A stretch of DNA of 23,028 nucleotides, taken from IMG/VR virus record IMGVR_UViG_3300005043_000095, positions 1-23,028 of that record; one strand, given 5' to 3'. The notes below the pieces were generated by a model, which worked only from the letters and a program-made list of their open reading frames with translations, was not told the origin of the DNA and did not search any database. Positions 1-21,733 of this stretch are shown here, piece by piece. Position numbers and translations under genes: made by a program. This stretch comes from a virus. The stretch's first letter is position 1, and the number at the start of each line of letters is the position of its first letter.

Positions 1-86
1 TCAGCATCTAACTTGCCAATAATGGTCATGCGTAATTCACTTTTACCTAAGTGATCAAGCAAGTTTACGGCGGTGATATAATTCAT
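1..86 (-). CDS. Mu gp36-like protein, N-terminal fragment
   Basis: A minus-strand reading frame opens with ATG at 86 and stays open to the window edge (about 28 residues, beginning MNYITAVNLLDHLGKSELRM). Its ATG shares one base with the stop of the upstream 60-aa gene (TAATG), which is typical of translational coupling in phage structural operons. In Mu the gene after gp35 is gp36 (DUF1320 family), which acts in head-tail completion. The position fits, and so does the short helical start followed by a basic stretch. The identification rests mainly on order; the fragment is too short for a firm family call. Confidence 0.5.
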   Translation of the reverse strand, partial: MNYITAVNLLDHLGKSELRMTIIGKLDA

Positions 87-268
87 TAGGTTTGCTCACT
101 TACTTCAGAGGCTAGGTTTTCATTGGCCTCTGAAATAGCACCAATAACCAACAATGGTGCTGCTTCATCTGTGGTTAGCATTAATGGCTTTTTGCTATCA
201 GGGTTAAATATTTGCTTGTTGTGCTTAACATTCCAGTTGGGCCGATATGCTTTTTTTTCTTCACTCAT
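86..268 (-). CDS. Mu gp35-like small head-region protein
   Basis: This 60-aa protein lies immediately downstream of the major capsid gene, where Mu carries gp35. It is hydrophilic at the N-terminus (lysine-rich, with Asn/Trp residues), then has a short hydrophobic segment around residues 38-45 and an acidic tail ending EVSEQT. The start at 268 is supported by a good Shine-Dalgarno (AGGTGA) a few bases upstream on the minus strand. It is coupled to the next gene by a TAATG overlap. Proteins at this locus are poorly characterised; a role in virion assembly is inferred only from position. Confidence 0.6.
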   Translation of the reverse strand: MSEEKKAYRPNWNVKHNKQIFNPDSKKPLMLTTDEAAPLLVIGAISEANENLASEVSEQT

Positions 269-379
269 AAATCACCTGTGCTCTTTATTTAAGGTATATG
301 CATTTAAGTTGCATCCTTGCTGCCGCCCATGGCTATCCTTAACTTTTTAGTCAGTCCACTGACCTTTAACGGTTATTTA

Positions 380-1321
380 TTAAATACAACCTTGGATCAA
401 GTAACCTGCATCCATACCTGTTAATAATGATTGGCGTTCATATTCGACACCGGCAACGTGTGATTTAATGGTGCGGTCATACCAAAATTGCTCTACGTTA
501 GGGTGTTTATTACCTGGAGCGTCTAGCGCATAGTTGTAACCAAAACTCATGGTTGCATGCGACGTGACCATTTTAGGCACAACAGCTAGCACAACATCTG
601 CAGCCCAAACATCTTCAAAGTTGTCGTTATTTTTAGGGTTAATCAGCATTGACATGCCAATAACTACCTTTTCAACTTGGAAAATCTTTTGATAATGCTC
701 AACGGTCATTATTTTCAGTTCATCGTTAGAGAACTTGGCTAACATCTGTGGATGCTCGCTTAGCATTTCGTTCACATCTGCAGGGATAAGCATTTTATTT
801 GGGTATTGGCCTGTTTTCTTACGAATAGCTTCACGGCCTGCTTTAACGTCACCAATGGGATCTGAATTAACATAATCAGACCATTTGGCATTACCTACTA
901 AGCTCACTTTATTGGTGGCACTATAGGCTGCAGGGTTGCGCGCTAATGTAGCTTGCTCGTACTCAAGGTTATTCAATTCAATTTGCATCACCGCTTCTAG
1001 CGATGAACGTTGAAAGCTTAAGCCTGGTATTAAAGCGGCTTCAGCTAACCATTCTTTAGGCACAACACAGTCAAGCGCGTTGCTATGTAATGAGTAGTTC
1101 TCGTCAGCAAAACCAATAGTGATGCGTTTGGTTGCAGTGCCCGGCGCACGGCGCGTGTTAATTACACGAAAGGCATCTTTACCAAATTTAATTATTTTTC
1201 CTGATTTAGCCGGTACACCAACACGTGGAAATAATTCATGACCAACTAACGACGGGTTGCTATAACCAAAGGCTAAATTAGACAGTACTGGGTCAACCGT
1301 GCGGATATTTTTACGATTCAT
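380..1321 (-). CDS. T: Major capsid protein (Mu T-like)
   Basis: This 313-aa protein follows protease I/scaffold Z and a decoration-like protein, the expected place for the Mu-like major head subunit (Mu T is about 305 aa). The N-terminal region (about residues 8-50) has the DPVLSNLAFGY...LVGHELFPRVGVPAKSG pattern seen in many phage capsid proteins, with FPRVPV-type motif and a FGKDAFR segment. The rest alternates helices and strands, compatible with an HK97-type coat fold. A good ribosome site (AAGAGGAAAA) precedes the ATG at 1321. The assignment as coat protein is strong from length, neighbours and N-terminal pattern; the exact family cannot be settled without a profile search. Confidence 0.8.
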   Translation of the reverse strand: MNRKNIRTVDPVLSNLAFGYSNPSLVGHELFPRVGVPAKSGKIIKFGKDAFRVINTRRAPGTATKRITIGFADENYSLHSNALDCVVPKEWLAEAALIPGLSFQRSSLEAVMQIELNNLEYEQATLARNPAAYSATNKVSLVGNAKWSDYVNSDPIGDVKAGREAIRKKTGQYPNKMLIPADVNEMLSEHPQMLAKFSNDELKIMTVEHYQKIFQVEKVVIGMSMLINPKNNDNFEDVWAADVVLAVVPKMVTSHATMSFGYNYALDAPGNKHPNVEQFWYDRTIKSHVAGVEYERQSLLTGMDAGYLIQGCI

Positions 1322-1347
1322 ATTTATTTTCCTCTTGTGTTAGCTGG

Positions 1348-1695
1348 TTAGCTATTTGCAGGTAGTAAAAGCACTTCAAATTGACCGCCATCAGCAGCTG
1401 CAGCACTTAGTGCTCTGCCAACCACTTTACCGGCTGCTTTGGTAATAAACTTGCCGTCATCGCCCACTTGTATAAGTGCATCAACAACAATGGCAGCACC
1501 TGCTTCACAGGTTGTTGACCCAAGTACATCAACAGCTAGCTCATCATCAATAAAAGAGTTGGTGTCTGATACACCGTGCATGTGCGCACCCACAGCGGCA
1601 TAACCACCGTCTAAAGCAATGGCGCGATGCGCTTCAATAATTGCAGCAGCAATAATGGTTAACGTTAAAATTGGGCGTTTAGATTGCGAATACAT
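1348..1695 (-). CDS. Capsid decoration (cement) protein, DUF2190-like
   Basis: This 115-aa, Ala/Gly/Val-rich, beta-type protein lies between the scaffold and coat genes. Its second half has the pattern of small capsid cement proteins: a polar turn (DVLGSTTCEAGAAI), a GDDGKFITKA stretch, then VVGRALSAAAADGGQFEVLLL ending close to the C-terminus. That arrangement (value, reset by G..VVGRAL, ending in EVLL) resembles DUF2190/capsid-cement family members, and the position corresponds to Mu gp33. A strong SD (AAGGGG) lies in the last codons of the upstream I/Z gene. The likely role is to bind and stabilise the outer surface of the head. It lacks any signal peptide. Confidence 0.6.
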   Translation of the reverse strand: MYSQSKRPILTLTIIAAAIIEAHRAIALDGGYAAVGAHMHGVSDTNSFIDDELAVDVLGSTTCEAGAAIVVDALIQVGDDGKFITKAAGKVVGRALSAAAADGGQFEVLLLPANS

Positions 1696-1696
1696 A

Positions 1697-2230
1697 TTAA
1701 TGCCCCTTAGCAGTTACAGCGTCTAACGCAACACTGTAAGAAACAGATTTGTCGCTTTGGTATTGAAGTACTACAGCGTTTAACTCAGCAGGTGAGCTAA
1801 ACTCAGCAACAACTAACACGTCATCATCAATGACATCTAACAACGAATGTTTACCACCGTTTTCAACCATGGCTTTCATGAATTCAACAGGGCTTTGGGT
1901 AACGGTTTCAACGTCTTTACCTGTGCCTTGGCTAAATTCAAACTTGCCACTTTCTTGGGTGGTGTCTGTGCCAATATGCGCCATAAACTCTGCCATACCT
2001 ATGGTTTGAGCAGGTAGTAACTTACTAGCGCTCACTTGCTCATTTATCCATGTCTGATGCGATTCAACCTGTTGGTTAAATTGCATGTCGGCATTTTGTT
2101 TTTCTAATAGAGCAATACGGTCTTTGTCCGTAGTTGCTTGTTGACTAAACTGAGCAGAGGTACTGGTTTGAGCATCTTGCTTAGCTTGGGCAACGGCCGC
2201 ATCAATATCGGCTTGAGTAAATTTACTCAT
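1697..2230 (-). CDS. Z: Nested scaffold protein Z (internal start in I)
   Basis: An internal in-frame ATG at 2230 begins a 177-aa product (MSKFTQADIDAAVAQAKQDA...). It is preceded by a near-perfect Shine-Dalgarno, GGAGGAT at 2235-2241, five bases from the ATG. The SD is written into codons for Ala-Glu-Asp-Asp of I, just after a Pro/Lys-rich linker that separates protease from scaffold. Mu uses this arrangement to make an excess of scaffold over protease. The product is helical and Gln/Ala-rich, ending in a more globular tail. This is a direct reading of start and RBS; the function is by analogy with Mu Z. Confidence 0.75.
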   Translation of the reverse strand: MSKFTQADIDAAVAQAKQDAQTSTSAQFSQQATTDKDRIALLEKQNADMQFNQQVESHQTWINEQVSASKLLPAQTIGMAEFMAHIGTDTTQESGKFEFSQGTGKDVETVTQSPVEFMKAMVENGGKHSLLDVIDDDVLVVAEFSSPAELNAVVLQYQSDKSVSYSVALDAVTAKGH

Positions 2231-2971
2231 ATCATCCTCCGCAGGAGTGTTAGGTTTGGGTTTGGAATAAAGATAATTAGATTCGTGAGTTTTTTCTTCT
2301 TCGATTTCAGCGCGAATAGTTTGACGTTGCAACCAGTCAATATCCCAGTCATCAATAATGGTTTTGGCTCCATCACTGTCACCGTTAGCTAACATCCATG
2401 TTTGAAATTTACGTAAAAAATTAACTAAGGTACTGGCGGTTTGGGTTTCAATTGAAAAATCAAAACTAGTGAGGGCTTCTTGCTCAACAGCAAATTTATA
2501 TTGACCTACAGGTTGAAGTTTTAACGCAGGTTTTTGGGCGCCTAAAAAGGCCATATGGTCAATATACCAACCTTTTTCTTTATCAAACTCAATGCCTATT
2601 GAGCGCTTACCGTAATGGCCTTTAACAACTGATTCAGCAAAGCCAATGTCAACACCATCACCGTTTAAGTACAACTTGTCGTCGTCACTTAACTTAACTT
2701 CTTTAGCAAAGCCGTAAGCCGGTGCATCGGCCTTTGGGTGCCCGGTCAGAAACGGCACAGTGCCAGGTTCAAAATTATCAACCATTTGCTGCAGGTCTTC
2801 ACGACTAAAAGTATAGGTTTTGCTAGCACTGTCGGTATGCGTACCCGCATGAAAGCTTTCAAACCAGGGTAAGTCTGTAACGGTCGCTAAGGCTTGCTCA
2901 ATAACTTGGGCTAAGGGCGCTTTTATTGGTAAAGAGCCTGGGGTCGAGGTAGTGCTGGTGTTTGTTTTCAT
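1697..2971 (-). CDS. I: Mu-like prophage protease I (head maturation protease with scaffold)
   Basis: This 424-aa protein has a Mu I-type organisation. The N-terminal half (about residues 30-190) is the protease part, including TFSREDLQQMVDNF, a GHP motif (about 77-79, GHPKADAPAYG) and KRSIGIEFD (about 122-130), features of the Mu gpI peptidase family. The C-terminal half from residue 248 is a glutamine- and alanine-rich coiled-coil scaffold. In Mu, I cleaves the scaffold during prohead maturation and the scaffold Z is made from an in-frame internal start, as appears to be the case here. The ribosome site for the full-length protein is weak (TAGG, about 12 bases from ATG), whereas the internal one is strong. 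It is the first gene of the leftward head operon. Confidence 0.87.
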   Translation of the reverse strand: MKTNTSTTSTPGSLPIKAPLAQVIEQALATVTDLPWFESFHAGTHTDSASKTYTFSREDLQQMVDNFEPGTVPFLTGHPKADAPAYGFAKEVKLSDDDKLYLNGDGVDIGFAESVVKGHYGKRSIGIEFDKEKGWYIDHMAFLGAQKPALKLQPVGQYKFAVEQEALTSFDFSIETQTASTLVNFLRKFQTWMLANGDSDGAKTIIDDWDIDWLQRQTIRAEIEEEKTHESNYLYSKPKPNTPAEDDMSKFTQADIDAAVAQAKQDAQTSTSAQFSQQATTDKDRIALLEKQNADMQFNQQVESHQTWINEQVSASKLLPAQTIGMAEFMAHIGTDTTQESGKFEFSQGTGKDVETVTQSPVEFMKAMVENGGKHSLLDVIDDDVLVVAEFSSPAELNAVVLQYQSDKSVSYSVALDAVTAKGH

Positions 2972-3009
2972 GCAGCTAGTTTGCCTACTTAACTGCGGGC
3001 TAACTGCTA

Positions 3010-3053
3010 GAAAACATTTGACGTATAACGTGGAAGGTTTCTTTTTTTACAGT
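3010..3053 (+). promoter_or_regulatory. Candidate activator-dependent late promoter (copy 1 of 18-bp box)
   Basis: The 18-mer GAAAACATTTGACGTATA at 3010-3027 recurs exactly at 16614-16631 in the same orientation. In both copies a -10-like hexamer follows at the same offset: TACAGT at 3048-3053 here, CATACT at 16652-16657 there. Each starts 30 bases after the start of the internal TTGACG. The 24-base gap is too long for an ordinary -35/-10 pair, so the box would sit near -40, where Mor- and C-type activators bind in Mu. Here it points toward the leader and the accessory operon at 3182-5210. It also lies 36 bases upstream of the divergent I gene and may serve both. Confidence 0.5.
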
Positions 3054-3055
3054 AC

Positions 3056-3108
3056 GTGTTGCCAGAAAAGAGTGCAACACTTTCTTTCTGAGTGTTGTTT
3101 CTGGTTTT
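3056..3108 (+). promoter_or_regulatory. Candidate attenuator: mutually exclusive hairpins
   Basis: A compound stem is formed by CAACACT (3075-3081) with AGTGTTG (3091-3097), and outside it CCAGAAA (3062-3068) with TTTCTGG (3098-3104), with a 6-nt bulge on the left arm and TTTT at 3105-3108. The same CAACAC segment can instead pair with an upstream GTGTTGC (3056-3062 with GCAACAC 3074-3080), which would destroy the terminator-like stem. That is the geometry of a terminator/antiterminator switch in a plus-strand leader. No ligand or leader peptide is recognisable. The pairing is seen directly; regulation is inferred. Confidence 0.45.
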
Positions 3109-3118
3109 ATTAACCATT

Positions 3119-3156
3119 CCCCACATCGGTTACCTATTTACGGTGTGGGGCTTTTT
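3119..3156 (+). terminator. Strong rho-independent terminator before accessory operon
   Basis: CCCCACATCG (3119-3128) pairs with CGGTGTGGGG (3141-3150), 10 pairs with one G-T wobble and a 12-base loop, followed by C and five T. It points rightward, yet no plus-strand gene lies upstream. It must therefore end a short leader or small RNA started near the box at 3010, or act as a second attenuator before the gene at 3182. Confidence 0.7.
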
Positions 3157-3181
3157 AACGACTAACTAGATGAGTTAAATA

Positions 3182-3442
3182 ATGTCTCCTGCACTTAACC
3201 TAAGAAAAAAACGTAAACCACAAAAGCAATGGGTATTAGAGCTAGCCCTTAGCGTTACACACAATACAGACCAAAGCGCTGTAACGCTTTATTACAATGG
3301 TGCTAAAGACCTTAAGCGTATTTACTTAACAAACAATATTAAGTACGCGCCCTGGTATGAGTCAAAACATCATGCCAATAGCCACTTAAACAGTGAAATG
3401 AAACATGCGGGCTTTGTGGCTCGTGAACATTCTTTTGTGTAG
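3182..3442 (+). CDS. Hypothetical protein, 86 aa, first gene of accessory operon
   Basis: I do not recognise this protein. It starts with a very basic N-terminus (residues 6-15, RLRKKRKPQK-like) followed by a beta-type segment (VLELALSV...AVTLYYN) and a central KDLKRIYLTNN region, ending in a His-rich tail. There is no membrane segment or signal peptide. The size, a basic leader and a single compact domain would fit a small DNA- or RNA-binding protein, but no motif shows it. Its ribosome site is weak (GATGAG about 7 bases upstream). It sits 26 bases after the terminator hairpin and 10 bases before the DUF2786 gene, so it is probably co-transcribed with the genes to 5210. Confidence 0.6.
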   Translation: MSPALNLRKKRKPQKQWVLELALSVTHNTDQSAVTLYYNGAKDLKRIYLTNNIKYAPWYESKHHANSHLNSEMKHAGFVAREHSFV

Positions 3443-3452
3443 GGTTGCTGTT

Positions 3453-4154
3453 ATGGAAACCGATAAGGCCACTGATAAAGTAATTGATAAAATTAAAAAA
3501 CTGTTAGCCCTGGCTAAAAGCAGCAACGCTAACGAAGCAGCACTTGCATTAAACCGTGCCCAAAAGCTAATGCAAGAATACGCTGTAACGTTTACGGATG
3601 TTCAGCTAGCTGATTGTGCAACCAGTGAAAGCCTACTTGATGCCAAGGGCGTTAATAAATATGAAATAATCCTTATTCATTTAATTGCCTATGCCTTTGG
3701 TATAGAGCCAATTGTCAGCTATACGAAAATTAATTGGAAAGTACGCGCTAAAGTGTGCTTTTTGGGCATATCTCCCCAACCTGAACTAGCACAATATTGT
3801 TTTGATGTTTTATATCGTCAGTTAAAGCAATCTCGCAGCCAATATATTAAGCAGCAATCCAAGCGATGTAAGGCAGCAACCAAAACTAAACGTGGAGATG
3901 CCTTTGCTGAAGCTTGGGTGATGTCGGCTTACCGAACCGTGCAAAAATTTGCATTAAACGATGAGCAATTAACTTTAATACAGACTTATAAAGACAATAG
4001 CTTTAATGACCTTGAAACAAGTAAAGGACGTGATAGAACCAAAGGAACGTCTCGGGCTAAAGATTATTTAGCTGGAATCAATGCAGCTAACGATGTTCGG
4101 TTAGACCGCCCTGTAGATGGCAAAGAAACGGCGAAACTGGGTTGTGACTTATGA
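3453..4154 (+). CDS. DUF2786 domain protein
   Basis: I start this at ATG 3453 (233 aa), with AGGG upstream, rather than at the earlier in-frame ATG at 3405, which would overlap the upstream gene by 38 bases. Residues about 10-50 carry the DUF2786 signature (IKKLLALAKSSNANEAALALNRAQKLMQEY), a short helical domain found in many phages. The remainder (HLIAYAFGIEPIV..., AFAEAWVMSAYRTVQKF, and a basic end with KGRDRTKGTSRAKDY and AGINAANDV) matches the usual C-terminal partner region of such phage proteins. Function is not established; the GR-rich tail suggests nucleic-acid contact. It overlaps the next gene by 4 bases (ATGA), which implies translational coupling. Confidence 0.8.
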   Translation: METDKATDKVIDKIKKLLALAKSSNANEAALALNRAQKLMQEYAVTFTDVQLADCATSESLLDAKGVNKYEIILIHLIAYAFGIEPIVSYTKINWKVRAKVCFLGISPQPELAQYCFDVLYRQLKQSRSQYIKQQSKRCKAATKTKRGDAFAEAWVMSAYRTVQKFALNDEQLTLIQTYKDNSFNDLETSKGRDRTKGTSRAKDYLAGINAANDVRLDRPVDGKETAKLGCDL

Positions 4155-4826: not shown

Positions 4827-5096
4827 ATGGATAACCAACACAAGAAAATTAAAGGCTATAGAGATTTGAGCCAGGAAGAAATTAACTTAATGAATAAGAT
4901 CAAAGCCAAAGGTGAGGAGGTTGGCGAGCTTATTAATGAGTTTAACAAAATGCGAGATGTAGACGCTGACATTATTGGTAAGTTGACCAATGAACAGTTA
5001 GCCGAAACCCGTAGAACTTTAGCCCTTGCTAAAACAAAACTACAAACGGGCTTTATGTGGTTTGTTAGAGCAGTTGCTTTGCCTGATTCATTTTAA
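4827..5096 (+). CDS. acb2: Acb2-like anti-CBASS cyclic-nucleotide sponge
   Basis: This 89-aa protein matches the Acb2 family (T4 Vs.4 and Pseudomonas phage PaMx33 type): YRDLSQEEINLMNKIKAKGEEV (from residue 11), then a helical hairpin and the conserved ending LALAKTKLQTGFMWFVRAVALP. Known Acb2 proteins form hexamers that bind and sequester cyclic di- and trinucleotides, starving CBASS effectors; some also bind Thoeris signals. From memory of the published work, Tyr11 and Lys26 are ligand contacts in PaMx33 Acb2; this protein has Y11 and K26 at the same numbers. The ribosome site is AGAGG about 7 bases from ATG. It is the penultimate gene of the accessory operon. The family call is strong; activity on a given nucleotide is untested. 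Confidence 0.88.
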   Translation: MDNQHKKIKGYRDLSQEEINLMNKIKAKGEEVGELINEFNKMRDVDADIIGKLTNEQLAETRRTLALAKTKLQTGFMWFVRAVALPDSF

Positions 5097-5501: not shown

Positions 5502-5532
5502 AAACGCCTTAATATTGATTTGAGGCGTTTTT
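5502..5532. terminator. Bidirectional terminator between convergent operons
   Basis: AAACGCCT (5502-5509) pairs with AGGCGTTT (5523-5530) around a 13-base loop, followed by TT on the plus strand. On the minus strand the arm runs into TTTATTTAG. It lies about 65 bases past the stop of the minus-strand gene at 5596 and so can end both converging transcripts. Confidence 0.65.
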
Positions 5533-5595: not shown

Positions 5596-7128
5596 TTATG
5601 CGGCTGAAGAGTCTAACCCTTGCAGACGGCGAGACTCGTAATAATCTTCAGCTAAAGCTGTCATTTTAAATTCAGTTTTAATGCCTGCTATTTTCTCAAC
5701 AGCACTTTTAATTGAATGTAGATCAGTTCTAAAGAACTCTTTTCTCATATTGACGGCATTAACGCGTGAATGTGTAAACTCACGATGTAATGCAGATTCT
5801 AATGCAGGAGCGTCTTCAACGTATATCATGGCATGAACATCAAAACTAAAAGGCACACTAGCATCACCTAGCTCTTTAACTCTATCCATAGGTTCAAGGC
5901 GACGAGTCAAGCCTATTTTGTAAACATCATCACCAAAAGAACCCACATTACTAATAACATACACATGTCCTTTTCTAGTTTGTTCAGCCATGCTTTTAGC
6001 TCTTTCTTCTTTAGCTTCAGCTTCTGCTAATTGTTGCTCTAAATCAGCAATACGCTGCTCGGCAATAATTCGATCATCATCGGATACTTTACTTAGTTCA
6101 GCTTTGGCTTTAGCGAGCATATCTCTATACATTCGCTCTTCTTTTTCCGCTTGAGAAATTGCACGTTCATATTCTTTTATTGCCCGTTGTTCTTCTCTTA
6201 TTTGCTCTTTAATAAGACGTTGCTCGTCTTGTTCTTCTTGCTTTTTAAGCGTGTATTGATACTGAAGTTGGCACTCTTCATACTTAAGTTTTATATAGTT
6301 TACATTAAAACCACAATGAAGCGTTGCCGCTGATTTTTCTATGGTATTAGCTAATTTTTCAATACGCTCCAAAGTCCTTGAGAAGCTACTGGGACTAACC
6401 TTACCAATTAAGGTATCACACTCAATATTGAACGAATTCAACATTAGTTTAACTTGCCCATCAAGGATTTTTTTATTGTATGATTTATCTAATGAAATAA
6501 CGGTTGAATCAAGATAATTGACAGCATCCTTTATTTTAATTAACTCTTTTTGTTTTTCGCGTACTCTTTTTATTTCTTCTGAAAACTTAACTGATGTTTC
6601 ATGTAAATATTCAGGAATATCAAAAAAACCATTTGCTACAAATTCATCTATACGGGAATATAAATCAAGTTGTCCTATAAGGTTTTGAAGTTCACCTCCT
6701 TTATTTTTAGCTTCATCACTTTTAGTACTTATATCAATAGTTATAGAGTTTAATTGCTCTCTATTATCCTTAACTTGAAAGGCTAAACTGTCAGCACTAA
6801 GCTTTAACTCTTGTAGAATAGTTGTTTCAGCATCTACTTTGGATAATTCATCTTTAGCTTCTACTATAGCGCTCTTGATTTTTGACAAACTATTTTCAGA
6901 TGATTTTTGTAGGCTTACTGCTTCATCATCTAATTTTACAAGGCTTTCTTTACTTTCAGTAATAGCCTTCTCGGTTTCAGATAAAATAGTTTCAGACTTA
7001 ATAATAGCTTCTGCTATTGATTTATAGCTTGATAATTGCCCGTTAAATTTTTTCTTGGTAAAAAAATATGTAAAAAAAACTAGCACCACAACAATTAGAG
7101 AAATCGCTAATATAATATTAATATCCAT
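5596..7128 (-). CDS. Membrane-anchored coiled-coil protein with GIY-YIG (T5orf172/MUG113) domain
   Basis: This 510-aa protein has an N-terminal transmembrane helix (residues 5-23) followed by KKK, so the body should be cytoplasmic. Residues about 35-150 and 290-385 are coiled coil. The middle (about 155-285, LDLYSRIDEF...CDTLIGKVSP...) resembles DUF4041. Residues about 387-480 are a GIY-YIG-type nuclease of the T5orf172/MUG113 kind: VYVI (389-392), YKIG (403-406), conserved Arg in RLEPMDRVKEL, and ALESALHREF. DUF4041 plus T5orf172 fusions occur in prophages and bacteria, with no settled function. It is co-oriented with the repressor and just behind a small coiled-coil gene, so it is probably expressed in the lysogen. 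It is visibly more AT-rich than the neighbouring phage genes. A defence or superinfection-exclusion role is inferred. Confidence 0.8.
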   Translation of the reverse strand: MDINIILAISLIVVVLVFFTYFFTKKKFNGQLSSYKSIAEAIIKSETILSETEKAITESKESLVKLDDEAVSLQKSSENSLSKIKSAIVEAKDELSKVDAETTILQELKLSADSLAFQVKDNREQLNSITIDISTKSDEAKNKGGELQNLIGQLDLYSRIDEFVANGFFDIPEYLHETSVKFSEEIKRVREKQKELIKIKDAVNYLDSTVISLDKSYNKKILDGQVKLMLNSFNIECDTLIGKVSPSSFSRTLERIEKLANTIEKSAATLHCGFNVNYIKLKYEECQLQYQYTLKKQEEQDEQRLIKEQIREEQRAIKEYERAISQAEKEERMYRDMLAKAKAELSKVSDDDRIIAEQRIADLEQQLAEAEAKEERAKSMAEQTRKGHVYVISNVGSFGDDVYKIGLTRRLEPMDRVKELGDASVPFSFDVHAMIYVEDAPALESALHREFTHSRVNAVNMRKEFFRTDLHSIKSAVEKIAGIKTEFKMTALAEDYYESRRLQGLDSSAA

Positions 7129-7132
7129 ATAC

Positions 7133-7531
7133 CTACCTTAACTCTGCATCTATAAATTTATTACGAAGAGCATTGCGCTCTTCACATCGTTGACTATAAG
7201 AGTTATTCGCTTGTTCAATAGCCCTTTTAAAGTTATCCTTTTTTGTTGCTACATTGGCTTTCTGTTCTGCAATTTGTTCTTTTTCTTTAGCTACTCGCTC
7301 TTTGTTTTCGGCTTTTATTTTGACTGCCTGCTCTCGCGCTTGAGCTTTATCTTCTGCAATACGATCCCTTTCCTGTTGTCGACGTTGTTTCTCATATGCA
7401 CGTTGATTCCTTGCTTGTTCTCTTTCTTGTAGTTTACGCTGTCGTTCAGCTTCTTTAGCTGCTCTTACAACTGCTTTATCAATAGCTTTAGCAACACCTA
7501 CCACAAATCTTAATCCACCATTCCTTGCCAT
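7133..7531 (-). CDS. Small basic coiled-coil protein partnered with the GIY-YIG protein
   Basis: This 132-aa protein is almost wholly one charged helix: after a short N-terminal amphipathic stretch (residues 7-25, LRFVVGVAKAIDKAVVRAA) it has long runs of Arg/Glu/Gln/Lys up to about residue 115. No enzyme motif is visible. A good ribosome site (AAGGATG) precedes ATG 7531. The stop codon lies only four bases before the ATG of the 510-aa gene, whose own SD (AAGGTAGG) overlaps the end of this gene. The two are therefore one translational unit and probably partners. The N-terminal amphipathic helix could touch the membrane. Function unknown. Confidence 0.7.
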   Translation of the reverse strand: MARNGGLRFVVGVAKAIDKAVVRAAKEAERQRKLQEREQARNQRAYEKQRRQQERDRIAEDKAQAREQAVKIKAENKERVAKEKEQIAEQKANVATKKDNFKRAIEQANNSYSQRCEERNALRNKFIDAELR

Positions 7532-7560: not shown

Positions 7561-8220
7561 CTAAACAGCTCGCCCTATCCATACGACTTTACCAATAACA
7601 TGCAGCAAATCTGAATTACTGTCATCAATAGTTTCATTTGGGTAAGCAGGGTTGTCTGAAATTATGTCAATTGCGCCCGTTAAGCGCTTTCGTAGGCGTT
7701 TTACAAACAAGTCTTTTTCGATACGTATTATATAAATACCATCAACAAACCTATCCATAGGGTTTTTATCAATAAGCAGCTCATCACCACAAGTAATGCT
7801 TGGCTCCATACTGTCGCCTTTAGCATGAATCATCACTAAATCTTTATTTTGTAAGTGATGTGCGTTTATCCATTCTTTTTTAAATATTAAGCCTTTCTCG
7901 CTTTCTTCGGTGAGTATCTCAGCGCCGTGTCCAGCAGAAGCATGAATATTTAGAACAGGAATATTGAGATATTCTTTTGTTTTATCTGAATGCACAACAC
8001 TTGAGGTAACATTTTTCTTACCTGTGATAATGTAATAAATGTCAAATCCCATAGACTCCATTACATCTAGTTTGTCCGACGGTATTGAGTTGCCAGACTC
8101 CCACCTTATAACGGTTTGCTTAGATACGCCGCTTTTTTCTATTAAAGCTTTTTGAGCAATGCCAAGCCTTTCTCTTTCTTCCTTTAAACGAAAAGTCACT
8201 TTTATTTCACCAAAATACAT
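7561..8220 (-). CDS. c: LexA/CI-type phage repressor (HTH_XRE + S24 peptidase)
   Basis: In this 219-aa protein, residues about 10-55 are an XRE helix-turn-helix (LKEERERLGIAQKALIEKSGVSKQTVIRWESG). A linker holds the likely autocleavage site Ala96-Gly97 (HASAGHG). The C-terminal part (about 110-219) is an S24 domain with catalytic Ser137 in GDSMEPSI and Lys174 in LFVKRLRK. It should hold the early operon off and be inactivated by RecA-stimulated self-cleavage after DNA damage. The classical Mu c repressor is not of this type, so the phage has a lambda-like switch. The gene starts beside an operator palindrome and has no SD: its promoter predicts an mRNA beginning at or next to the ATG. It leads the lysogenic operon with the two genes behind it. 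Confidence 0.9.
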   Translation of the reverse strand: MYFGEIKVTFRLKEERERLGIAQKALIEKSGVSKQTVIRWESGNSIPSDKLDVMESMGFDIYYIITGKKNVTSSVVHSDKTKEYLNIPVLNIHASAGHGAEILTEESEKGLIFKKEWINAHHLQNKDLVMIHAKGDSMEPSITCGDELLIDKNPMDRFVDGIYIIRIEKDLFVKRLRKRLTGAIDIISDNPAYPNETIDDSNSDLLHVIGKVVWIGRAV

Positions 8221-8640: not shown

Positions 8641-9345
8641 ATGACTAGCCCAAAACACGATCCAAAGCGCACCATTGAACAAATTATTTCTGATGAAACC
8701 AGCGCCCCTGTCAACAAAACCTATGATGAACGCTATGCAGAGCACGAGGCGCGTAAAGCCGCGGACACAATGACCCGTGCAAAGTGGGATCAACTAAAGT
8801 TAAGAAACAAAAAAGCGGTTAATGAATTACGCCTTGAGAAGTCTGCTCTAAACGTTGCTCAGGTGAAGCGAATAAAGGTTGATATGGCCATTCACTTAAT
8901 CCGTAACACGTTGCACCAAATTGGCTTAACGAAAGACGCGCGATATAACACCCTAATAAATCATCCGACAGCGCCTTACTTGTATTCAGCTCATCGAGAT
9001 CGGTTATTTGAGGTTTTCCCAATTCCACTAGAAAAGCATAACCGTGATAAGCGTCGCGAACAGCCAGCATTAGCTCAAGTAATAAAAGCGGTGCTACCTG
9101 ATTTCGCCCTCGCTTTCGAAACGCATCCGGACCTTGACGAAATATGGTTGCTTGCTGCTCGTGAGTTAGCTCTGAACCCTTTGCCACTTTTATCCCCCCT
9201 CCCTGATAAGCCAGTAACAGTTCGTCGCGAGCATCAGGCAAATAACACTGCTCAAGCGTGTTCATCCAATACTGAATTACCGAATAAAGCTCTTCATAAA
9301 AAAAGTCGTTTTGCTCGGTGGTTAGTAAAGCTGGGTTGGTCATAA
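8641..9345 (+). CDS. Early hypothetical protein downstream of ner
   Basis: ATG 8641 follows an excellent SD (AGGAG) 12 bases after ner, so translation here is very likely. The first 75 residues or so are charged and helical (RTIEQIISDETS..., DERYAEHEARKAAD, RAKWDQLKLRNKKAVNELRLEKSAL) and look like a genuine protein. From about residue 60 on the frame is overlapped almost entirely by a long open frame on the other strand, and there the product becomes rich in His, Pro and Arg (for example HPTAPYLYSAHRD), less typical of the region. The frame may therefore be real only in its N-terminal part, or both strands may code. No family recognised. Confidence 0.6.
   Translation: MTSPKHDPKRTIEQIISDETSAPVNKTYDERYAEHEARKAADTMTRAKWDQLKLRNKKAVNELRLEKSALNVAQVKRIKVDMAIHLIRNTLHQIGLTKDARYNTLINHPTAPYLYSAHRDRLFEVFPIPLEKHNRDKRREQPALAQVIKAVLPDFALAFETHPDLDEIWLLAARELALNPLPLLSPLPDKPVTVRREHQANNTAQACSSNTELPNKALHKKSRFARWLVKLGWS
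8819..9343 (-). CDS. Candidate antisense gene overlapping the early operon
   Basis: ATG 9343 (with GAGA about 8 bases upstream; a TTG lies at 9355) opens a 174-aa minus-strand frame that lies entirely inside the plus-strand gene 8641-9345. The product reads like a soluble helical protein: EQNDFFYEELYSVIQYW, DARDELLLAYQGGG, FRKRGRNQVAPLLLLELM, DLDELNTSKALSDDLLGCYIARLS. In this register a minus stop appears wherever a plus codon of the form NTT, NCT or NTC is followed by A; I counted about 38 such codons in the overlap, none followed by A. So one frame is open by unusual luck, or both are selected. No family recognised. Confidence 0.4.
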   Translation of the reverse strand: MTNPALLTTEQNDFFYEELYSVIQYWMNTLEQCYLPDARDELLLAYQGGGIKVAKGSELTHEQQATIFRQGPDAFRKRGRNQVAPLLLLELMLAVRDAYHGYAFLVELGKPQITDLDELNTSKALSDDLLGCYIARLSLSQFGATCYGLSEWPYQPLFASPEQRLEQTSQGVIH

Positions 9346-9353
9346 TTTTTCTC

Positions 9354-9441
9354 AATTGTTAAGTAAAAAGCTAAAAAGTTGAAACAAGCTTAACAAAGAA
9401 AAACTAACAATTAACCGGTAAAAATTAATTATTTTTTACCG
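9354..9441. promoter_or_regulatory. Intergenic cluster of inverted repeats (operator candidate)
   Basis: Within the 127-base gap between 9345 and 9473 lie TTGTTAAG (9356-9363) with CTTAACAA (9389-9396), AATTGTTA (9354-9361) with TAACAATT (9405-9412), and CGGTAAAAA (9416-9424) with TTTTTACCG (9433-9441). The last has the same GGTAA/TTACC arms as the operator by the repressor gene. It may control the operon from 9473 on, or both directions if the antisense gene is real. Confidence 0.45.
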
Positions 9442-11057: not shown

Positions 11058-12752
11058 ATGATGCACACCGCCATTATTGAATATAAAAAACTTGACCTAA
11101 CCACGCCGCAAGTAGCCCGATGGGATCAAGCAACGCAAAAGCAACAAAATATTGCTAAGGCACGCAAACTTATTATCACTGACTTTTCTCAGTTGTTAGC
11201 GAGTTACTCATTTAGTAAAGCGCATAAACAGTTTAAAGGCCTTTTTAACACCAGTAGTTTGTCAGCACCCACTTTACAGGCCATCGGGTTATTAAAAGGT
11301 AAAGTAGCCAGTGCTAACACCCTTAAAACATGGTCGGATGATTATGAAGTTAATGGTCTTGCAGGCTTGTTACCTAGTCATAAAGGTAGCACCCGAGTGG
11401 TGCGTGGCTGGGAGCATAAAGCCTTAGAGCTTTACCATGTACCACAAAAACCTAGTTTAAAAAATGTGGCTTTGCAACTGCGAGAAGATTACGCATTTGA
11501 AGACGCTACCAACCATAATGTTTGGTACTTTTTCGGCTTGTTACCCGCTGAATTAGGTGATAAGTCTCGTTGGCGTATAGGTAGTAAATTATACCGAGAC
11601 GGACAACGCCAATATAACCTTCGTCACACCGAAAACATGCAAGTAGGTGAAATTTTTCAAGGTGACGGCCATACCTTAGATGTTTACTTAAAACACCCTA
11701 ATAATGGGGATTTATGGCGCGCTGAATTAACCGTATTTCAAGATTGGAAAAGCCGCTACATTGTGGGTTGGTATTTGGCTAATGCTGAAAGCTCTATTAC
11801 TACAATGGCCGCATTAAGCCATGCCATGGGTACTTACAACCATGTACCGGGCTTACTTTATGTTGATAATGGTTGTGGCTTTAAAAGCAAGCTAATGAAT
11901 GATGACATGGCAGGGTTTTATAAGAACTTTGGTATAGACGTTATTTTTGCCATACCAGGTAATGCCAAAGCCAAAGGTAATGTTGAGCGCTTCTTTCGCG
12001 TAATGGAAGAAGACTTGAATAAACGCTTCGACACGTATTGCGGCAAAGACATGAGTAACGATATTGCGCGCCATTTTAGCAGTAAAAATATTCCTAAATT
12101 CAAAAAGCTCGGCATTCATTTACCTACACAAGAAGAGTGGTGTGAAGCATTTGAAAGCTGGTTAATTAAGTACCATAACCGCCCAAATCCTGAATATAAA
12201 AACACAACCCCTGCAGCTATGTGGGCACAGCTAAATAATACACCGGTGCACGACATGAACTTACTGGTAAAACCGCGTGCTCGTGTAAATGTACGCCGTA
12301 GCTCTATTGTTCATCAAGGCAGAACATATCGCGCAGATTTATTGCATCAATTAAACGGCAAAGCGTTAGCGGCAGAGTACGACATGCACAATGATGAAAG
12401 CATGCGCATTTTTGATACCGACGGTACCTATTTGGTTACGGTTGACCTTGCCCATAAAAGTGCATCTATACCGACTAGCAGACTTGTTGAACAGCGTGAA
12501 AAATCGCGACTTGCGTCGAATAAGCGCTTAGAGAACAAACTGGCAGCAAACAACAGTCGTTATTTACCTGCTAAACCTGCGCACGAGCATCAATTAGACG
12601 AGCTTGAATTATTAACACCGGCAAAACAAAACAATTTACCTGAGCAAAGTGAGCCAGAAATAGACCTTAATAAAATAATACAAAGCGGCTTGTTTAATCA
12701 AAAGCCTGACGATGAAGACGAGCCCGAATTAGATTTACTTAATAACATTTAA
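11058..12752 (+). CDS. A: Mu-like DDE transposase A
   Basis: This 564-aa protein has a rve-type RNase-H core with the DDE triad: Asp203 in FQGDGH, Asp270 in YVDNG and Glu310 in GNVERFF. The first two are 67 residues apart, as in MuA (D269, D336). N-terminal helix-turn-helix regions (about 40-110 and 125-165) should bind phage ends. The C-terminal 60 residues are acidic (ending DDEDEPELDLLNNI), a likely contact for B. It performs strand transfer of phage DNA into target DNA. At 564 aa it is about 100 shorter than MuA and seems to lack the N-terminal enhancer-binding domain. SD TAGGAG precedes ATG 11058. Confidence 0.93.
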   Translation: MMHTAIIEYKKLDLTTPQVARWDQATQKQQNIAKARKLIITDFSQLLASYSFSKAHKQFKGLFNTSSLSAPTLQAIGLLKGKVASANTLKTWSDDYEVNGLAGLLPSHKGSTRVVRGWEHKALELYHVPQKPSLKNVALQLREDYAFEDATNHNVWYFFGLLPAELGDKSRWRIGSKLYRDGQRQYNLRHTENMQVGEIFQGDGHTLDVYLKHPNNGDLWRAELTVFQDWKSRYIVGWYLANAESSITTMAALSHAMGTYNHVPGLLYVDNGCGFKSKLMNDDMAGFYKNFGIDVIFAIPGNAKAKGNVERFFRVMEEDLNKRFDTYCGKDMSNDIARHFSSKNIPKFKKLGIHLPTQEEWCEAFESWLIKYHNRPNPEYKNTTPAAMWAQLNNTPVHDMNLLVKPRARVNVRRSSIVHQGRTYRADLLHQLNGKALAAEYDMHNDESMRIFDTDGTYLVTVDLAHKSASIPTSRLVEQREKSRLASNKRLENKLAANNSRYLPAKPAHEHQLDELELLTPAKQNNLPEQSEPEIDLNKIIQSGLFNQKPDDEDEPELDLLNNI

Positions 12753-12788: not shown

Positions 12789-13823
12789 ATGGCTAAAGAG
12801 CACATTGACTACCCAGCTACATTTACTGAGTTTTACAGTGAACAAAATAAACTTGATGCGAAGCGTATTATTGATTGGCTTAACGAGAGTAAAACACGCA
12901 CTCAAGCGCATTTAGTAAAGCAAATATCGTATTCTGCAGGCTCGGTTAGTACGTTAATTAATGGTGTACACCCTAAAGATCCACAACCGGTAATTAATGT
13001 GATCATCCCTATTGTTGAAGATACTTCAAAGCCATTAGTTGCTGGCGAATTTGTACATACCAGTACCTATAACATTGTTCTTTCGGCATGCAAAAAAGCG
13101 AAAGACTCTGCGCGTTTTACTGTGGTAGCCGGTTCGCCTGGTGTAGGTAAAACATCGTCTTTGCTTGAGTATGTTAAAGAAGATCCTAACGCTATTTACA
13201 TGTGCGGCAGTGAAACCACAACAAGCAGTGTTGTGCTTGATGAATTAATGGAAGCGTTAAGCATTAAAGCGAGAGCAACCAACACTAAAAATAGCCGCCT
13301 TAAACTAATTATTGAAAAATTAGCTGGCTCTGGCCGGTTGATTATTTTAGATGAAGCGGATAAGTGCGCTAAGGATGCGTGCGACCCGTTAAGAACCATT
13401 TCAGACAAAACAGGCTGTGGCGTGGTGTTAGCGGGTAACCATCAGTTACGTGACAATATTATTGTGGGTAACAACCGCTACGATTTAATTAGTGACCGTG
13501 TTGTGTTCTGGCCTGCCGCCATAAACCATATAACACTTGAAGACTGCAGCCTGTTAATGCGCCCTTATTTTAACGATGACATGCTAGGTGATGACTTTGA
13601 TGTACTAGTGAAATACGCCTATGAGCTCACTAAAGGCAGCGCTAGAAAGCTGGTTGATTCACTTATTCCCAATGCGCTTGATGTATATAGAAACCAAAAA
13701 TCAACGAATGTTGACGCCGTTATTACCTGTAACTGGTTGAGAACTATTGGCAAGCAATTAATGGGTATCACTAACCCACCAATGATACCTCATAAACCTT
13801 GTGCAGTAGCCGTACCGGCATAA
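12789..13823 (+). CDS. B: Mu-like transposition protein B (AAA+ ATPase)
   Basis: In this 344-aa protein, residues 1-60 hold a HTH region (DAKRIIDWLNESKTRTQAHLVKQISYSAGSVSTLING). An AAA+ core follows, with Walker A GSPGVGKT (115-122) and Walker B LIILDEAD (184-191), then a sensor-1-like region (VVLAGNHQLRD). B binds target DNA in an ATP-dependent way, activates A and confers target immunity in Mu. SD GAAGGAA is close upstream, and the gene follows A by 36 bases. The length is slightly above the Mu B length of about 312 aa. Confidence 0.92.
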   Translation: MAKEHIDYPATFTEFYSEQNKLDAKRIIDWLNESKTRTQAHLVKQISYSAGSVSTLINGVHPKDPQPVINVIIPIVEDTSKPLVAGEFVHTSTYNIVLSACKKAKDSARFTVVAGSPGVGKTSSLLEYVKEDPNAIYMCGSETTTSSVVLDELMEALSIKARATNTKNSRLKLIIEKLAGSGRLIILDEADKCAKDACDPLRTISDKTGCGVVLAGNHQLRDNIIVGNNRYDLISDRVVFWPAAINHITLEDCSLLMRPYFNDDMLGDDFDVLVKYAYELTKGSARKLVDSLIPNALDVYRNQKSTNVDAVITCNWLRTIGKQLMGITNPPMIPHKPCAVAVPA

Positions 13824-17749: not shown

Positions 17750-18043
17750 ATGATTGATAAAAAACAACCTGCCATGAGTAGTGAAACCGCTCTGATTTTG
17801 CACGAGTTGGGGAAAATAACAGGGCAGTTAACGTCATTAGAAAAACATACCTGTGAATGGCGAGATGCACAATCAAAAACTAACCATGCCATTTTCAGGA
17901 AGCTTGATGAGCATGATGAACGCATTCGGTATAACGAAACCAGTATTGCCAAAAGAGCGGGTATTATATCGGCTGCAACAGGTGTTGGTGTGGCGTTAAT
18001 TGCTGAAGCGGTAAAGTTAGCGGTGAAAGCTAATGGCTCGTAA
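17750..18043 (+). CDS. Coiled-coil protein with C-terminal membrane helix (lysis/Mu gp25-like region)
   Basis: This 97-aa protein has an N-terminal two-thirds that is a charged coiled coil (ILHELGKITGQLTSLEKHTCEWRDAQ..., RKLDEHDERIRYNE), followed by one hydrophobic helix (about 70-90, AGIISAATGVGVALIAEAVKL) and a short basic tail. This layout resembles XhlA/DUF2730-type proteins found between holin and terminase genes in Mu-like phages, thought to assist lysis or membrane association. It starts 4 bases after the holin and overlaps the TerS gene by 11 bases. Function not shown. Confidence 0.6.
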   Translation: MIDKKQPAMSSETALILHELGKITGQLTSLEKHTCEWRDAQSKTNHAIFRKLDEHDERIRYNETSIAKRAGIISAATGVGVALIAEAVKLAVKANGS

Positions 18044-18530
18044 TCAAGAAAAACATGATGCGGTTCGCCGTGTTTTTATTTGTGACAGGCTTAGCCTTAA
18101 AGCCGCCGCTGAGTTACAAGGTGTTCCGCAAGCTACCGCTGCTCGCTGGAAAGTAAAAGCGAAACAAAAAGGGGACTGTTGGGATAAAGCAAAAAGTGCT
18201 TCACGCCTTGCGCAAGGCGGTATGGGTGACTTGTCTATTCAGGTGCTAGAAGATTTCACCCTTCAATATAGCTCATTAATGGACATATTAAGACACTCTA
18301 ATATGGAACCATTAGAAAAGGCGAGCATCTTAACAAAGCTTGCTGACAGTTATGTAAAAATAACCAAGGCTGCCGGGGGTGGTGACAATAAAATTGGTCG
18401 CTTAAGTGTCGCAATGGAGACGATAAGACTGCTTTCTGACTTTATGCGTGAACGCTATCCTCATCAGTTGGAGGCATTTACAATAGCGTTAGATCAATTT
18501 GCCCCTGAATTAAGTAAGCAGTTCAGTTAA
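18033..18530 (+). CDS. Terminase small subunit-like (DUF1804)
   Basis: This 165-aa protein starts with an N-terminal HTH (residues about 5-45: KHDAVRRVFICDRLSLKAAAELQGVPQATAARWKVKAK), followed by GDCWDKAKSASRLAQGG and a helical body (VLEDFTLQYSSLMDILRHS, LADSYVKITKA). The pattern matches DUF1804 proteins, the TerS-like partner encoded just before TerL in Mu-like phages. It would bind packaging sites and load the large subunit. The stop (TAA at 18530) directly abuts the ATG of TerL, and the start overlaps the previous gene by 11 bases. Confidence 0.8.
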   Translation: MARNQEKHDAVRRVFICDRLSLKAAAELQGVPQATAARWKVKAKQKGDCWDKAKSASRLAQGGMGDLSIQVLEDFTLQYSSLMDILRHSNMEPLEKASILTKLADSYVKITKAAGGGDNKIGRLSVAMETIRLLSDFMRERYPHQLEAFTIALDQFAPELSKQFS

Positions 18531-20279
18531 ATGGCTGACTTAAAAGAAAAGCAGTTCCTTGATGAAGTAGCCCAACTAACAGCAAAGCTACGACAAGAAA
18601 TAGACGCTAAAAAACAAAACCTAGACACCTCACCTACGGCAATAAGAAAACGCCGTAAGCGCGTACTTAGTGGTGATTTTGAGTTTTTTGTTTATGCTTA
18701 TTTTCCGCATCATATGTGGCTAGAAAAAGGTCAAAAGCCCAGCGAGTTTCAGGGGCGATTTTTCAAACGTTTCCCCCTGGCATTATTTAGTGAAGACCCT
18801 GTTAGAGATTGGTGGGCAGCTCCGCGCGGCGAGGGTAAATCAACATTACTCACTAAGTTAGGACCAATATTTGTTGCGGCTTTAGATTTACTACAGCGCC
18901 CTGGTGTTTGTGAAGAATTAGCGATTAAAAAAACTCCTGAAATTCATATTAACTATTTGATTGTTTTTGGCGCTGAAACACGTATGCCAGCCAAGCTGCT
19001 TGAAGTGGTTAAAACTGAATTAATTAACAACCCTCAATTACAGTTAGATTTTCCTGAAATATGTGGCAGTACCGGGCATTGGAAAATTGGCGAGTTTACG
19101 ACCAGTAACGGGGTGACCATGGAAAGCCGAGGTATTAACCAAGCGGTTCGTGGAACCTTTAGTGGTGCTAATAGACCACAGCTTTTATTAAGCGATGACA
19201 TTATTACCGACAGTGAGGCTAAATCATCAACCGAACGTGATAACCGTTGGGACACATTAGAAGCGGGTATTGATTATCTCGGCCCACCTGATGGTAGCGT
19301 TAAGTTTATGGCCGTTAATACCGTACTGCATCATGACGATCCTATTAGTCGTGCCAAGAACAGTCCTGGCCATACAGTCTTTCAATTTAAAGCATTGGTT
19401 GAAATGCCGCACAATATGGATTTGTGGCATCACTGTGAAGAGTTAATGCGTAATGATGATAAGCGTTACAAATTAGAAGTTGCCGCTCTTGATGGCTTTG
19501 CCAAGCTAAAAGACTACCCAAGCTATAAGTTTTGGATCAAAAACAAAAAGGCGATGAGTAAAGGCGCAGTGGTAAGTTGGCCTTGTGTACGTGATTTATA
19601 CACAATTATGTCACTGAGAGTTAAGAATTTAAAAGCCTTTAATAAAGAGATGCAAGGCATTCCACGTAGTGATGATGAGTTGCTGTTTGATAAGTTTGAA
19701 TTTTGGGTGAACCGATTACCTGAATGGAAAACTTATGGTGCTTGTGATCCCAGTATGGGTAAAGGTGAAAGTGCCGATCCTTCTGCATTAGTTGTTGGTC
19801 ATTACCACCCGTTATCTAAGAAGGGTCATATTGAGCATTGTGTACGCAAACGTAGACAACCGTCTGTGCTTTTGACTGATATGATTAAGCTTCAAAATGA
19901 ATTTAACCCTATCACATGGGGTTTTGAAAACAATAATGCTTTTGAATGGATGCGTAAATCTTTTGCCAATATGGCGCTTGATCAAAAGGTAATTATGCCT
20001 ACCACTGGTTGGACGGCCATAAAATCTCAGCAAGAATACATTGAGAGTTTAGAGCCATTTATTACTGACATAGACCCCAATATTTTATTCCATGCCCGGT
20101 GCCATGCATTAATTGAAGAAATGGGCACGTATCCCGACAAAGAAAGCCACCATCATTACGATGCGTTAGTTGCATTGCATTTATGGTGGGTAACGGCTGT
20201 AGCGCGTAGTGGTGGTATTCCATTAGCGCGTTCAGCTAACACTAGCGGCGGTGTTAATACCGCAGGATTTGGTCGATGA
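18531..20279 (+). CDS. Terminase large subunit (Mu gp28-like)
   Basis: This 582-aa protein has an N-terminal ATPase with Walker A APRGEGKST (97-105) and Walker B LLLSDDI (218-224). The C-terminal RNase-H-like nuclease carries Asp406 in GACDPSMGKG, Glu466 in GFENNNA and Asp544 in HYDALVALH. This is the motor and nuclease that cuts and packages phage DNA into the prohead. Mu gp28 is about 551 aa, so it is full length. It overlaps the portal gene by ATGA. It has no membrane segment. Confidence 0.9.
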   Translation: MADLKEKQFLDEVAQLTAKLRQEIDAKKQNLDTSPTAIRKRRKRVLSGDFEFFVYAYFPHHMWLEKGQKPSEFQGRFFKRFPLALFSEDPVRDWWAAPRGEGKSTLLTKLGPIFVAALDLLQRPGVCEELAIKKTPEIHINYLIVFGAETRMPAKLLEVVKTELINNPQLQLDFPEICGSTGHWKIGEFTTSNGVTMESRGINQAVRGTFSGANRPQLLLSDDIITDSEAKSSTERDNRWDTLEAGIDYLGPPDGSVKFMAVNTVLHHDDPISRAKNSPGHTVFQFKALVEMPHNMDLWHHCEELMRNDDKRYKLEVAALDGFAKLKDYPSYKFWIKNKKAMSKGAVVSWPCVRDLYTIMSLRVKNLKAFNKEMQGIPRSDDELLFDKFEFWVNRLPEWKTYGACDPSMGKGESADPSALVVGHYHPLSKKGHIEHCVRKRRQPSVLLTDMIKLQNEFNPITWGFENNNAFEWMRKSFANMALDQKVIMPTTGWTAIKSQQEYIESLEPFITDIDPNILFHARCHALIEEMGTYPDKESHHHYDALVALHLWWVTAVARSGGIPLARSANTSGGVNTAGFGR

Positions 20280-21733
20280 AAGCTTCTAAAAAAGAGTTAC
20301 TTGATAACAGCATTATTGAGCGTTTAAATGACAATCAACTAGTAGGTATGATGCATGAATTACCTGACACTGATGAGTTGTTACGTAAGGCAGGGGTAGA
20401 CCAAGAGGTTTATAACGAAATCCTACAAGACCCGCATGTAATGGGTGAAGTACGGCAGATTTATAGCTCTTTGTTAGGGTTTAAATATGAATTACAAGCG
20501 GGTGATGAGTCTAGCACTGCGCAACAAGCCTTAGAACTTTGCCAGAGTATATTTAAACAAAGACCACACCGCACTATGCGTTGGAATGATTTGTTTTGGT
20601 CTATTGGTAAAGCACCATTAACTGGTCGTAGAGTACATGCCATTAACTGGCAAGAGAAAAAAGGCAAGTTAATACCTGAACAAATTAAAGATATTGAGGC
20701 CTGTAAATATGGTTTTAATAGTGAAGGTGAATTACTGATTAAAAGCATGGAAATACCACAAGGTGAAGTTGCCCCTGATATGCGATTTTTAATCACTCGG
20801 CATATGTCTGATGCAACTAACCCGTACGGCTTAGCAATATTGAGTTGTTGTTTTTGGAGTTGGATGTTTAAAAACGGAGGTTTAAAGTTTTTTGTTCGCT
20901 TTTGTGAGCGATTTGGACAGCCATTCCCTATTGGAAAATACCCTCAAGGTACTCTTGAAGGAGATATTGATAAATTAATTGAATCACTTAAGCGCTTATC
21001 TGAAGATGCGGTTGCTGCAATTCCTGACGATAGCAGTATTGATATTTTAGAAGTTAAAACCAGTGGGCAATTGCCGCAAGAGCGTTTGGTTTTATTAATG
21101 AACCGTGAAATGAGTAAAGCATTAACCAGCCAAACTGCGGCGAGTGAATTAACGGGTGAAGGTGGTAGTAGAGCAGCGTCAGAAACGCATCAAGGTAGAA
21201 CAGATCAAAATGCTAAAGCTGATCGCGCATTAGTGGCAGATACAATGAACCAGCTGTTTGAGTTCACAACTATTGTGAACTTTGGTGAGAACGTGCCACC
21301 GCCAACGTTGAAATATATTGATAAAAAGCAAATCAGTAAGGAAGACGTCGAAATAACAGTAATGGCAGCAACTTCAGTACCAATTAAGGCTGATGAATTT
21401 TATAGCCGCACAGGATTCACTAAACCTGCCAAGAATGACGAAACCATATTCTTAGGTGCTAGTGTAGTCAAAGAGCCAAACAAAGGCACGGTTGCTGAAT
21501 TCGCAAATGGAAAGTTTAAAAAAACACAAGACTGGGATGATTATGATCAGTCGATTAGTGATCTTGTTGAGCAGATAAGGAAAGCGGTTGCGACAGGTGA
21601 AACATTAGAAAATGCATTAGATGCCATGGTTACATTAATGCCTGAATTAGATAAGAGTGTTTTAAATAATTTAGTTAGCCAGGAGCTTGAGATTGAGTTT
21701 GGCGCGGGCATGTTGGATGCTGATAATGACTAA
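20276..21733 (+). CDS. Portal protein (Mu gp29-like, DUF935)
   Basis: This 485-aa protein matches the DUF935 portal family: LLRKAGVDQEVYNEILQDPHV at about residues 36-55 (the 'L..D..V...' region), FWSIGKAPLTGRRVHAINW, then SRHxSD-like RHMSDATNPYGLAILSCCFWSWMFKNGG, and a FVRFCERFGQPFPIGKYP segment (roughly 205-225). The C-terminal part is helical and acidic. It forms the dodecameric ring for DNA entry. Mu gp29 is about 512 aa. Its ATG overlaps the TerL stop and its end overlaps the MuF gene start by 8 bases. Confidence 0.88.
   Translation: MKASKKELLDNSIIERLNDNQLVGMMHELPDTDELLRKAGVDQEVYNEILQDPHVMGEVRQIYSSLLGFKYELQAGDESSTAQQALELCQSIFKQRPHRTMRWNDLFWSIGKAPLTGRRVHAINWQEKKGKLIPEQIKDIEACKYGFNSEGELLIKSMEIPQGEVAPDMRFLITRHMSDATNPYGLAILSCCFWSWMFKNGGLKFFVRFCERFGQPFPIGKYPQGTLEGDIDKLIESLKRLSEDAVAAIPDDSSIDILEVKTSGQLPQERLVLLMNREMSKALTSQTAASELTGEGGSRAASETHQGRTDQNAKADRALVADTMNQLFEFTTIVNFGENVPPPTLKYIDKKQISKEDVEITVMAATSVPIKADEFYSRTGFTKPAKNDETIFLGASVVKEPNKGTVAEFANGKFKKTQDWDDYDQSISDLVEQIRKAVATGETLENALDAMVTLMPELDKSVLNNLVSQELEIEFGAGMLDADND

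Follow-up and report, generated by a model that had tools for sequence, protein, structure and literature searches.

PD-lambda-1 came from a functional selection (PMC9519451) and has since been renamed SNIPE (PMC13190303, Nature 2026). The E. coli protein is located in the inner membrane, with its DUF4041 and nuclease domains on the cytoplasmic side, and cleaves phage DNA during injection: defence is nuclease-dependent, with a need for E414, and the protein associates with both ManYZ and tape-measure proteins (PMC13190303). DUF4041 promotes DNA binding and probably contacts the tape-measure protein; loss of the transmembrane (TM) segment makes SNIPE toxic, the membrane-bound form being auto-inhibited, and the highly variable N-terminal region has been proposed to act as an adapter (PMC13190303). 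SNIPE thus represents a newly described type of self/non-self discrimination by place, in which DNA is cut only at its site of entry. Solo SNIPEs are capable of defence by themselves (PMC13190303, PMC12322248), no partner gene is mentioned in PMC13190303, where SNIPE is treated as one protein, and our literature search found no published description of a SNIPE partner like the one reported here. Since the characterised SNIPEs act without such a companion, it must be unnecessary for the basic reaction.

A SNIPE homologue and its companion gene in a Mu-like phage

The window analysed here is an entire 23-kb viral record, which by gene content derives from a Mu-like transposable phage: in addition to the transposase and ATPase listed in Table 1, the Mu portal and MuF proteins were recognised in it. 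A prophage repressor is followed on the same strand, after a 29-base gap, by a small gene, here termed the companion, and after a further 4 bases by the gene for a membrane nuclease, an arrangement of a 132-aa and a 510-aa ORF behind the repressor that a sequence-only reading of the window had already described correctly. Both ORFs have good Shine-Dalgarno sequences, namely AAGGATG before the companion start and AAGGTAGG, overlapping the companion stop, for the nuclease. No terminator-like sites were found between the repressor and the pair, and the stem-loop 3' of the pair may also terminate the minus-strand transcript. From this layout the repressor probably heads an operon that includes the pair, and we infer expression of both genes in the lysogen. 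The nuclease gene has the lowest GC content among the main ORFs (33.5%, with 29.3% in the part encoding the stalk, against 40.8% in the rest of the window), so that the earlier remark on AT-rich, moron-like DNA was a fair one.

Table 1. Coordinates of the features discussed in the text (window positions)
Feature	Position	Strand	Basis
Terminator-like stem-loop 3' of the pair	5502..5530		scored on + strand
SNIPE (PD-Lambda-1) family membrane nuclease, 510 aa	5596..7128	(-)	PADLOC PD-Lambda-1
GIY-YIG (T5orf172/MUG113), residues 387-480	5689..5970	(-)	PF10544 E=1.1e-16; PF13455 E=2.1e-18
Codon of Glu444, equivalent of SNIPE catalytic Glu414	5797..5799	(-)	alignment with L082
DUF4041, residues 227-282	6283..6450	(-)	PF13250 E=1.1e-12
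Cytoplasmic stalk, residues 29-154, heptad-periodic helix	6667..7044	(-)	AF2 helix 38-158; period 3.51
Putative hydrophobic transmembrane helix, about residues 5-25, then TKKKF	7054..7116	(-)	read from sequence; AF2; SNIPE alignment
Companion gene, 132 aa	7133..7531	(-)	ORF; homologues directly upstream of related SNIPEs
CI/S24-type prophage repressor	7561..8220	(-)	PF00717 E=1.6e-18; phrog_4 E=2e-41
MuA-type transposase	11058-12752		Pfam
MuB-type ATPase	12789-13823		Pfam

The 510-aa protein matches the PADLOC PD-Lambda-1 model over nearly its entire length (E=1.7e-163, residues 3-503 of 510) and is 40% identical to the E. coli PD-lambda-1/SNIPE of phage PhiR26_1 (L082, XSB42081.1). By sequence it is a SNIPE homologue and a new member of the family. 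The domain matches bear out the architecture proposed in the sequence-only reading, a putative TM segment (read from sequence) followed by DUF4041 and GIY-YIG domains, and the positive-inside rule predicts the N-out/C-in topology of SNIPE. An AlphaFold2 model (mean pLDDT 81.8) contains an N-terminal helix (residues 2-33) covering the putative TM segment, a continuous stalk helix of 121 residues (38-158), the helices of DUF4041, another long helix (276-345) and a GIY-YIG fold. When compared with PDB structures this model gave only chance matches of long helices, none with E<=0.001, and there was likewise no sequence match in the PDB. Cutting at the entry site by a membrane-tethered nuclease, as the sequence-only reading had suggested, is the mechanism demonstrated for this family (PMC13190303), and by analogy would apply to the present protein, which matches it along its full length.

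In an alignment of 160 SNIPEs the equivalent of the catalytic glutamate is Glu444, which is retained in 159 of them, the remaining one having a gap; the Y-I..K-G, R and H residues show almost no variation across the same set. The nuclease site is conserved among relatives, with a correction to the active-site residue: Glu450, named earlier for this role, has an E at the aligned position in just 41 of the 160. The reference sequence used for this assignment, L082, possesses all nine residues numbered in PMC13190303 (E223, N250, L253, W257, E264, K305, I308, T319 and E414), which indicates that it is the tested SNIPE or one nearly identical to it.

Several other features of the window deserve mention. 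On the plus strand, positions 4827-5096 encode an 89-aa protein with an Acb2/Tad1 hairpin domain (PF24729, E=4e-20), likely a cyclic-nucleotide sponge directed against CBASS or Thoeris; together with the SNIPE pair, this putative sponge means that one phage seems to carry both anti-defence and defence. The left end (1-2971, minus strand) encodes a cement-protein homologue and large ORFs which, by size and position, are probably the protease and capsid genes, whereas the portal and MuF genes lie at the right end on the opposite strand (18033-22979, plus). As Mu has a single head operon, this split of head genes over both ends and strands points to a contig that is rearranged, inverted or circularly permuted. 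Two ORFs overlap on opposite strands, 8819-9355 (minus, 178 aa) and 8641-9345 (plus, 234 aa), and neither has a Pfam match.

Association of the companion with a single SNIPE clade

The SNIPE core being already known, the new element of the locus is the companion gene that gives it a two-gene form. The closest relatives of the window SNIPE, on four viral contigs (L002-L005) and on L083, a Pseudoalteromonas plasmid, are all preceded at 3-10 bp by a small gene homologous to the companion; companions also lie upstream of SNIPE in L110 and the plasmid L127. When an alignment of this SNIPE clade was scanned against 84,980 species genomes, 26 loci were recovered and a companion was present in all 26, 3-13 bp upstream of SNIPE. 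Their hosts are Vibrio, Photobacterium, Enterovibrio, Grimontia, Aliivibrio, Moritella, Shewanella, Pseudoalteromonas, Marinomonas, Colwellia, Noviherbaspirillum, Duganella and a Desulfobacteraceae MAG. Over genome loci, viral contigs and plasmids taken together, the companion measures 93-162 aa and lies 0-25 bp upstream, with spacings of 0-13 bp in nearly all cases.

The association holds in the reverse direction as well. SNIPE occurs in 64 of 330 Vibrionaceae genomes; a companion profile had 22 matches, in 22 of the same 330 genomes, each immediately preceding a SNIPE gene, which in one case is interrupted, and no orphan companions were seen. None of the 39 more distant Vibrionaceae SNIPEs examined has a companion beside it. 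In a FastTree phylogeny of 112 SNIPE cores, the paired SNIPEs all fall in one clade (support 0.997) with L128 and L006 as a sister branch, the exception being L114, which belongs to an unrelated SNIPE clade and has a weaker companion match. Pairwise distances of companions and SNIPE cores are correlated (r=0.82, Mantel 0/5000). The companion diverges fast, which explains why viral contigs and phages scanned with the companion alone gave no match; its homologues were reached only via synteny with SNIPE and through one plasmid match.

Within the paired clade only L151 and L152 lack a scored companion. L151, from a Vibrionaceae genome (919-2520), has a naturally interrupted SNIPE next to an intact companion, so that the companion can outlast an intact SNIPE, at least for a while. 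In L152 an unrecognisable 126-aa ORF (735-1115) lies 1 bp upstream of a 576-aa SNIPE and is read as a replaced or very divergent companion. In both L006 (4779-4907) and L162 (1348-1476), a CI-type repressor of 323 aa and SNIPE flank a 42-aa ORF; its resemblance to the companion is confined to the C-terminal motif, and it is possibly a minimal version.

These patterns bear on one alternative, namely that the window encodes an ordinary solo SNIPE whose cotranscribed neighbour, the companion, does something independent or of marginal importance, e.g. as a regulator or hitchhiker. The ability of solo SNIPEs to defend by themselves and the reduction of the companion to 42 aa in L006 and L162 would fit this explanation, but it appears improbable given a near-strict two-way association that extends over gamma- and betaproteobacteria and a Desulfobacteraceae MAG, the tight spacing, the survival of the pair on chromosomes, plasmids and phages alike, and the covariation of companion and stalk length detailed below.

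The relatives also inform on genomic context. A search for the pair next to repressors in other prophages, as the sequence-only reading had proposed, was successful in L004, where the repressor is followed after 2 bp by the companion and after a further 6 bp by SNIPE. Solo SNIPEs lie directly behind CI-type repressors (phrog_4) in L028, L029, L033, L036, L050 and L124, and other phage regulators precede those of L034 and L113. Thus, it appears that in many prophages SNIPE occupies a position from which it is expressed in the lysogen. Further pairs have plasmid or chromosomal locations close to other genes of defence type; on the Pseudoalteromonas plasmid (L083, pKCTC22325, 1783-3769), a SLATT-domain gene and a reverse-transcriptase gene stand beside the pair in an apparent defence cluster. 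The location of the window pair among the early and regulatory genes of a transposable phage could alternatively suggest that it serves the Mu-like phage itself, in lysogeny or in DNA processing (e.g. conversion of its own ends), and has no part in defence. We regard this as very improbable, because there are close relatives on plasmids and chromosomes that have no Mu-like genes around them and the family is an experimentally demonstrated defence system.

The companion helix and its match to the SNIPE stalk

No family in Pfam, PHROG, NCBIfam or PADLOC matched the companion above cut-off. Its homologues share a conserved amphipathic N-terminus (MAR..GLR..I.V.KAIDKA) and a conserved C-terminal motif (RCEER..LR..FI...L), separated by a charged, length-variable middle with only 11% aliphatic or aromatic residues, and are basic (net charge about +9 to +19, pI 10 or higher). 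AlphaFold2 models the window companion as a single helix of 127 residues (5-131) with a pLDDT of 92.6. The periodicity of companions peaks at 3.65-3.66, i.e. an 11/3 repeat, and that of SNIPE stalks at 3.5. The stalk is accordingly a heptad coil and the companion one long charged helix devoid of a heptad coil; the coiled-coil label of the sequence-only reading survives for the former and fails for the latter. A canonical heterodimeric coiled coil of the two was considered and rejected, as the mismatch in periodicity renders such a simple pairing unlikely.

Across 29 non-redundant pairs, companion length (93-162) and stalk length (85-186) are correlated with r=0.96, the window pair standing at 132 and 126. 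Phylogenetic contrasts of the two lengths retain this relationship (r=0.94, with none of 2000 permutations as high), though only about 16 contrasts are informative, because most close relatives share identical lengths (104 against 100); once the longest members are dropped the values are 0.83-0.93. The slope of the contrasts is 0.69, so that at the upper end of the range stalks exceed their companions in length. Little length variation is seen in the linker between DUF4041 and the nuclease. From this covariation we take the companion to span the same distance as the stalk, and infer direct contact between the two. The positions of indels in pairwise alignments were too ambiguous, in these low-complexity helices, to tell a parallel from an antiparallel orientation.

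Two other roles for the companion can be weighed against these features. As an immunity factor or antitoxin, it would keep the SNIPE nuclease off host DNA in a toxin-antitoxin-like pair; this would accord with the toxicity of SNIPE lacking its TM segment, the auto-inhibition of the membrane-bound form (PMC13190303) and the first position of the companion gene, as is seen with many antitoxin genes. Yet solo SNIPEs restrain themselves without a partner, a long rod matched in length to a stalk would be unusual for an antitoxin, and orphan companions were absent from Vibrionaceae, leaving this role unlikely. A function in specificity is a somewhat better, still tentative proposal: the basic helix might capture DNA or serve as an adapter to a host membrane protein, steering SNIPE to entry ports other than ManYZ. 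The high positive charge and the highly variable N-terminal region of SNIPE, with its proposed adapter role (PMC13190303), are in its favour, but by itself it supplies no reason for the length of the companion to track that of the stalk.

Mechanistic interpretation and comparison with known systems

The explanation we favour, and consider quite probable, is that the window encodes a two-gene SNIPE for superinfection exclusion, placed in the repressor operon of a Mu-like temperate phage, with the companion as a length-matched strut beside the stalk. The predicted course of events would begin as the injection channel of a second phage opens, the likeliest targets being phages whose tape-measure protein is long, such as siphoviruses. 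Both the injection machinery and the incoming DNA would be recognised by DUF4041, and the GIY-YIG domain would cleave that DNA during entry. The companion, a predicted rigid charged helix of stalk length, would most likely run alongside the stalk as a strut, presumably with its amphipathic N-terminus at the membrane or the stalk base and its C-terminal motif near DUF4041, and may either tune targeting or keep the nuclease off until injection. A more specific version of this proposal, possible though speculative, is that the companion acts as a strut or ruler reaching from the membrane to DUF4041 and mechanically couples docking of the injection machine to the release of the auto-inhibited nuclease. 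If true, this would make the pair a sensor-plus-effector SNIPE, with two rods held equal in length by selection. The paired subfamily offers a direct handle on how the nuclease is restrained before injection and on the role of the variable N-terminal region. Moreover, any survey that scores PD-Lambda-1 as one gene overlooks the other half of this two-gene form, in Vibrionaceae as well as in other marine bacteria.

Like the E. coli SNIPE of PhiR26_1 (XSB42081.1), the window protein combines a predicted N-terminal TM segment, helical stalk, DUF4041, charged helix and GIY-YIG domain, is prophage-borne and retains all conserved nuclease residues, including the equivalent of E414 (E444). It differs from the E. 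coli system, at 40% identity, in comprising two genes rather than one: the single-gene organisation of characterised SNIPEs is replaced by a conserved companion throughout the paired clade. As the family is not defined in PMC13190303 by the absence of a partner, the companion marks a variant and membership stands. PD-Lambda-1 of Streptococcus thermophilus belongs to the same family and confers >3-log protection against several phage genera, but has a Gram-positive host and is listed as a one-gene system (PMC12322248). The T5orf172/MUG113 GIY-YIG nucleases share the nuclease domain family, a relation at the level of that domain only. Kiwa and Zorya are likewise sited at the membrane, act on DNA at entry and consist of more than one protein (PMC12904381); their proteins are unrelated to the pair, and the resemblance is one of working principle alone.
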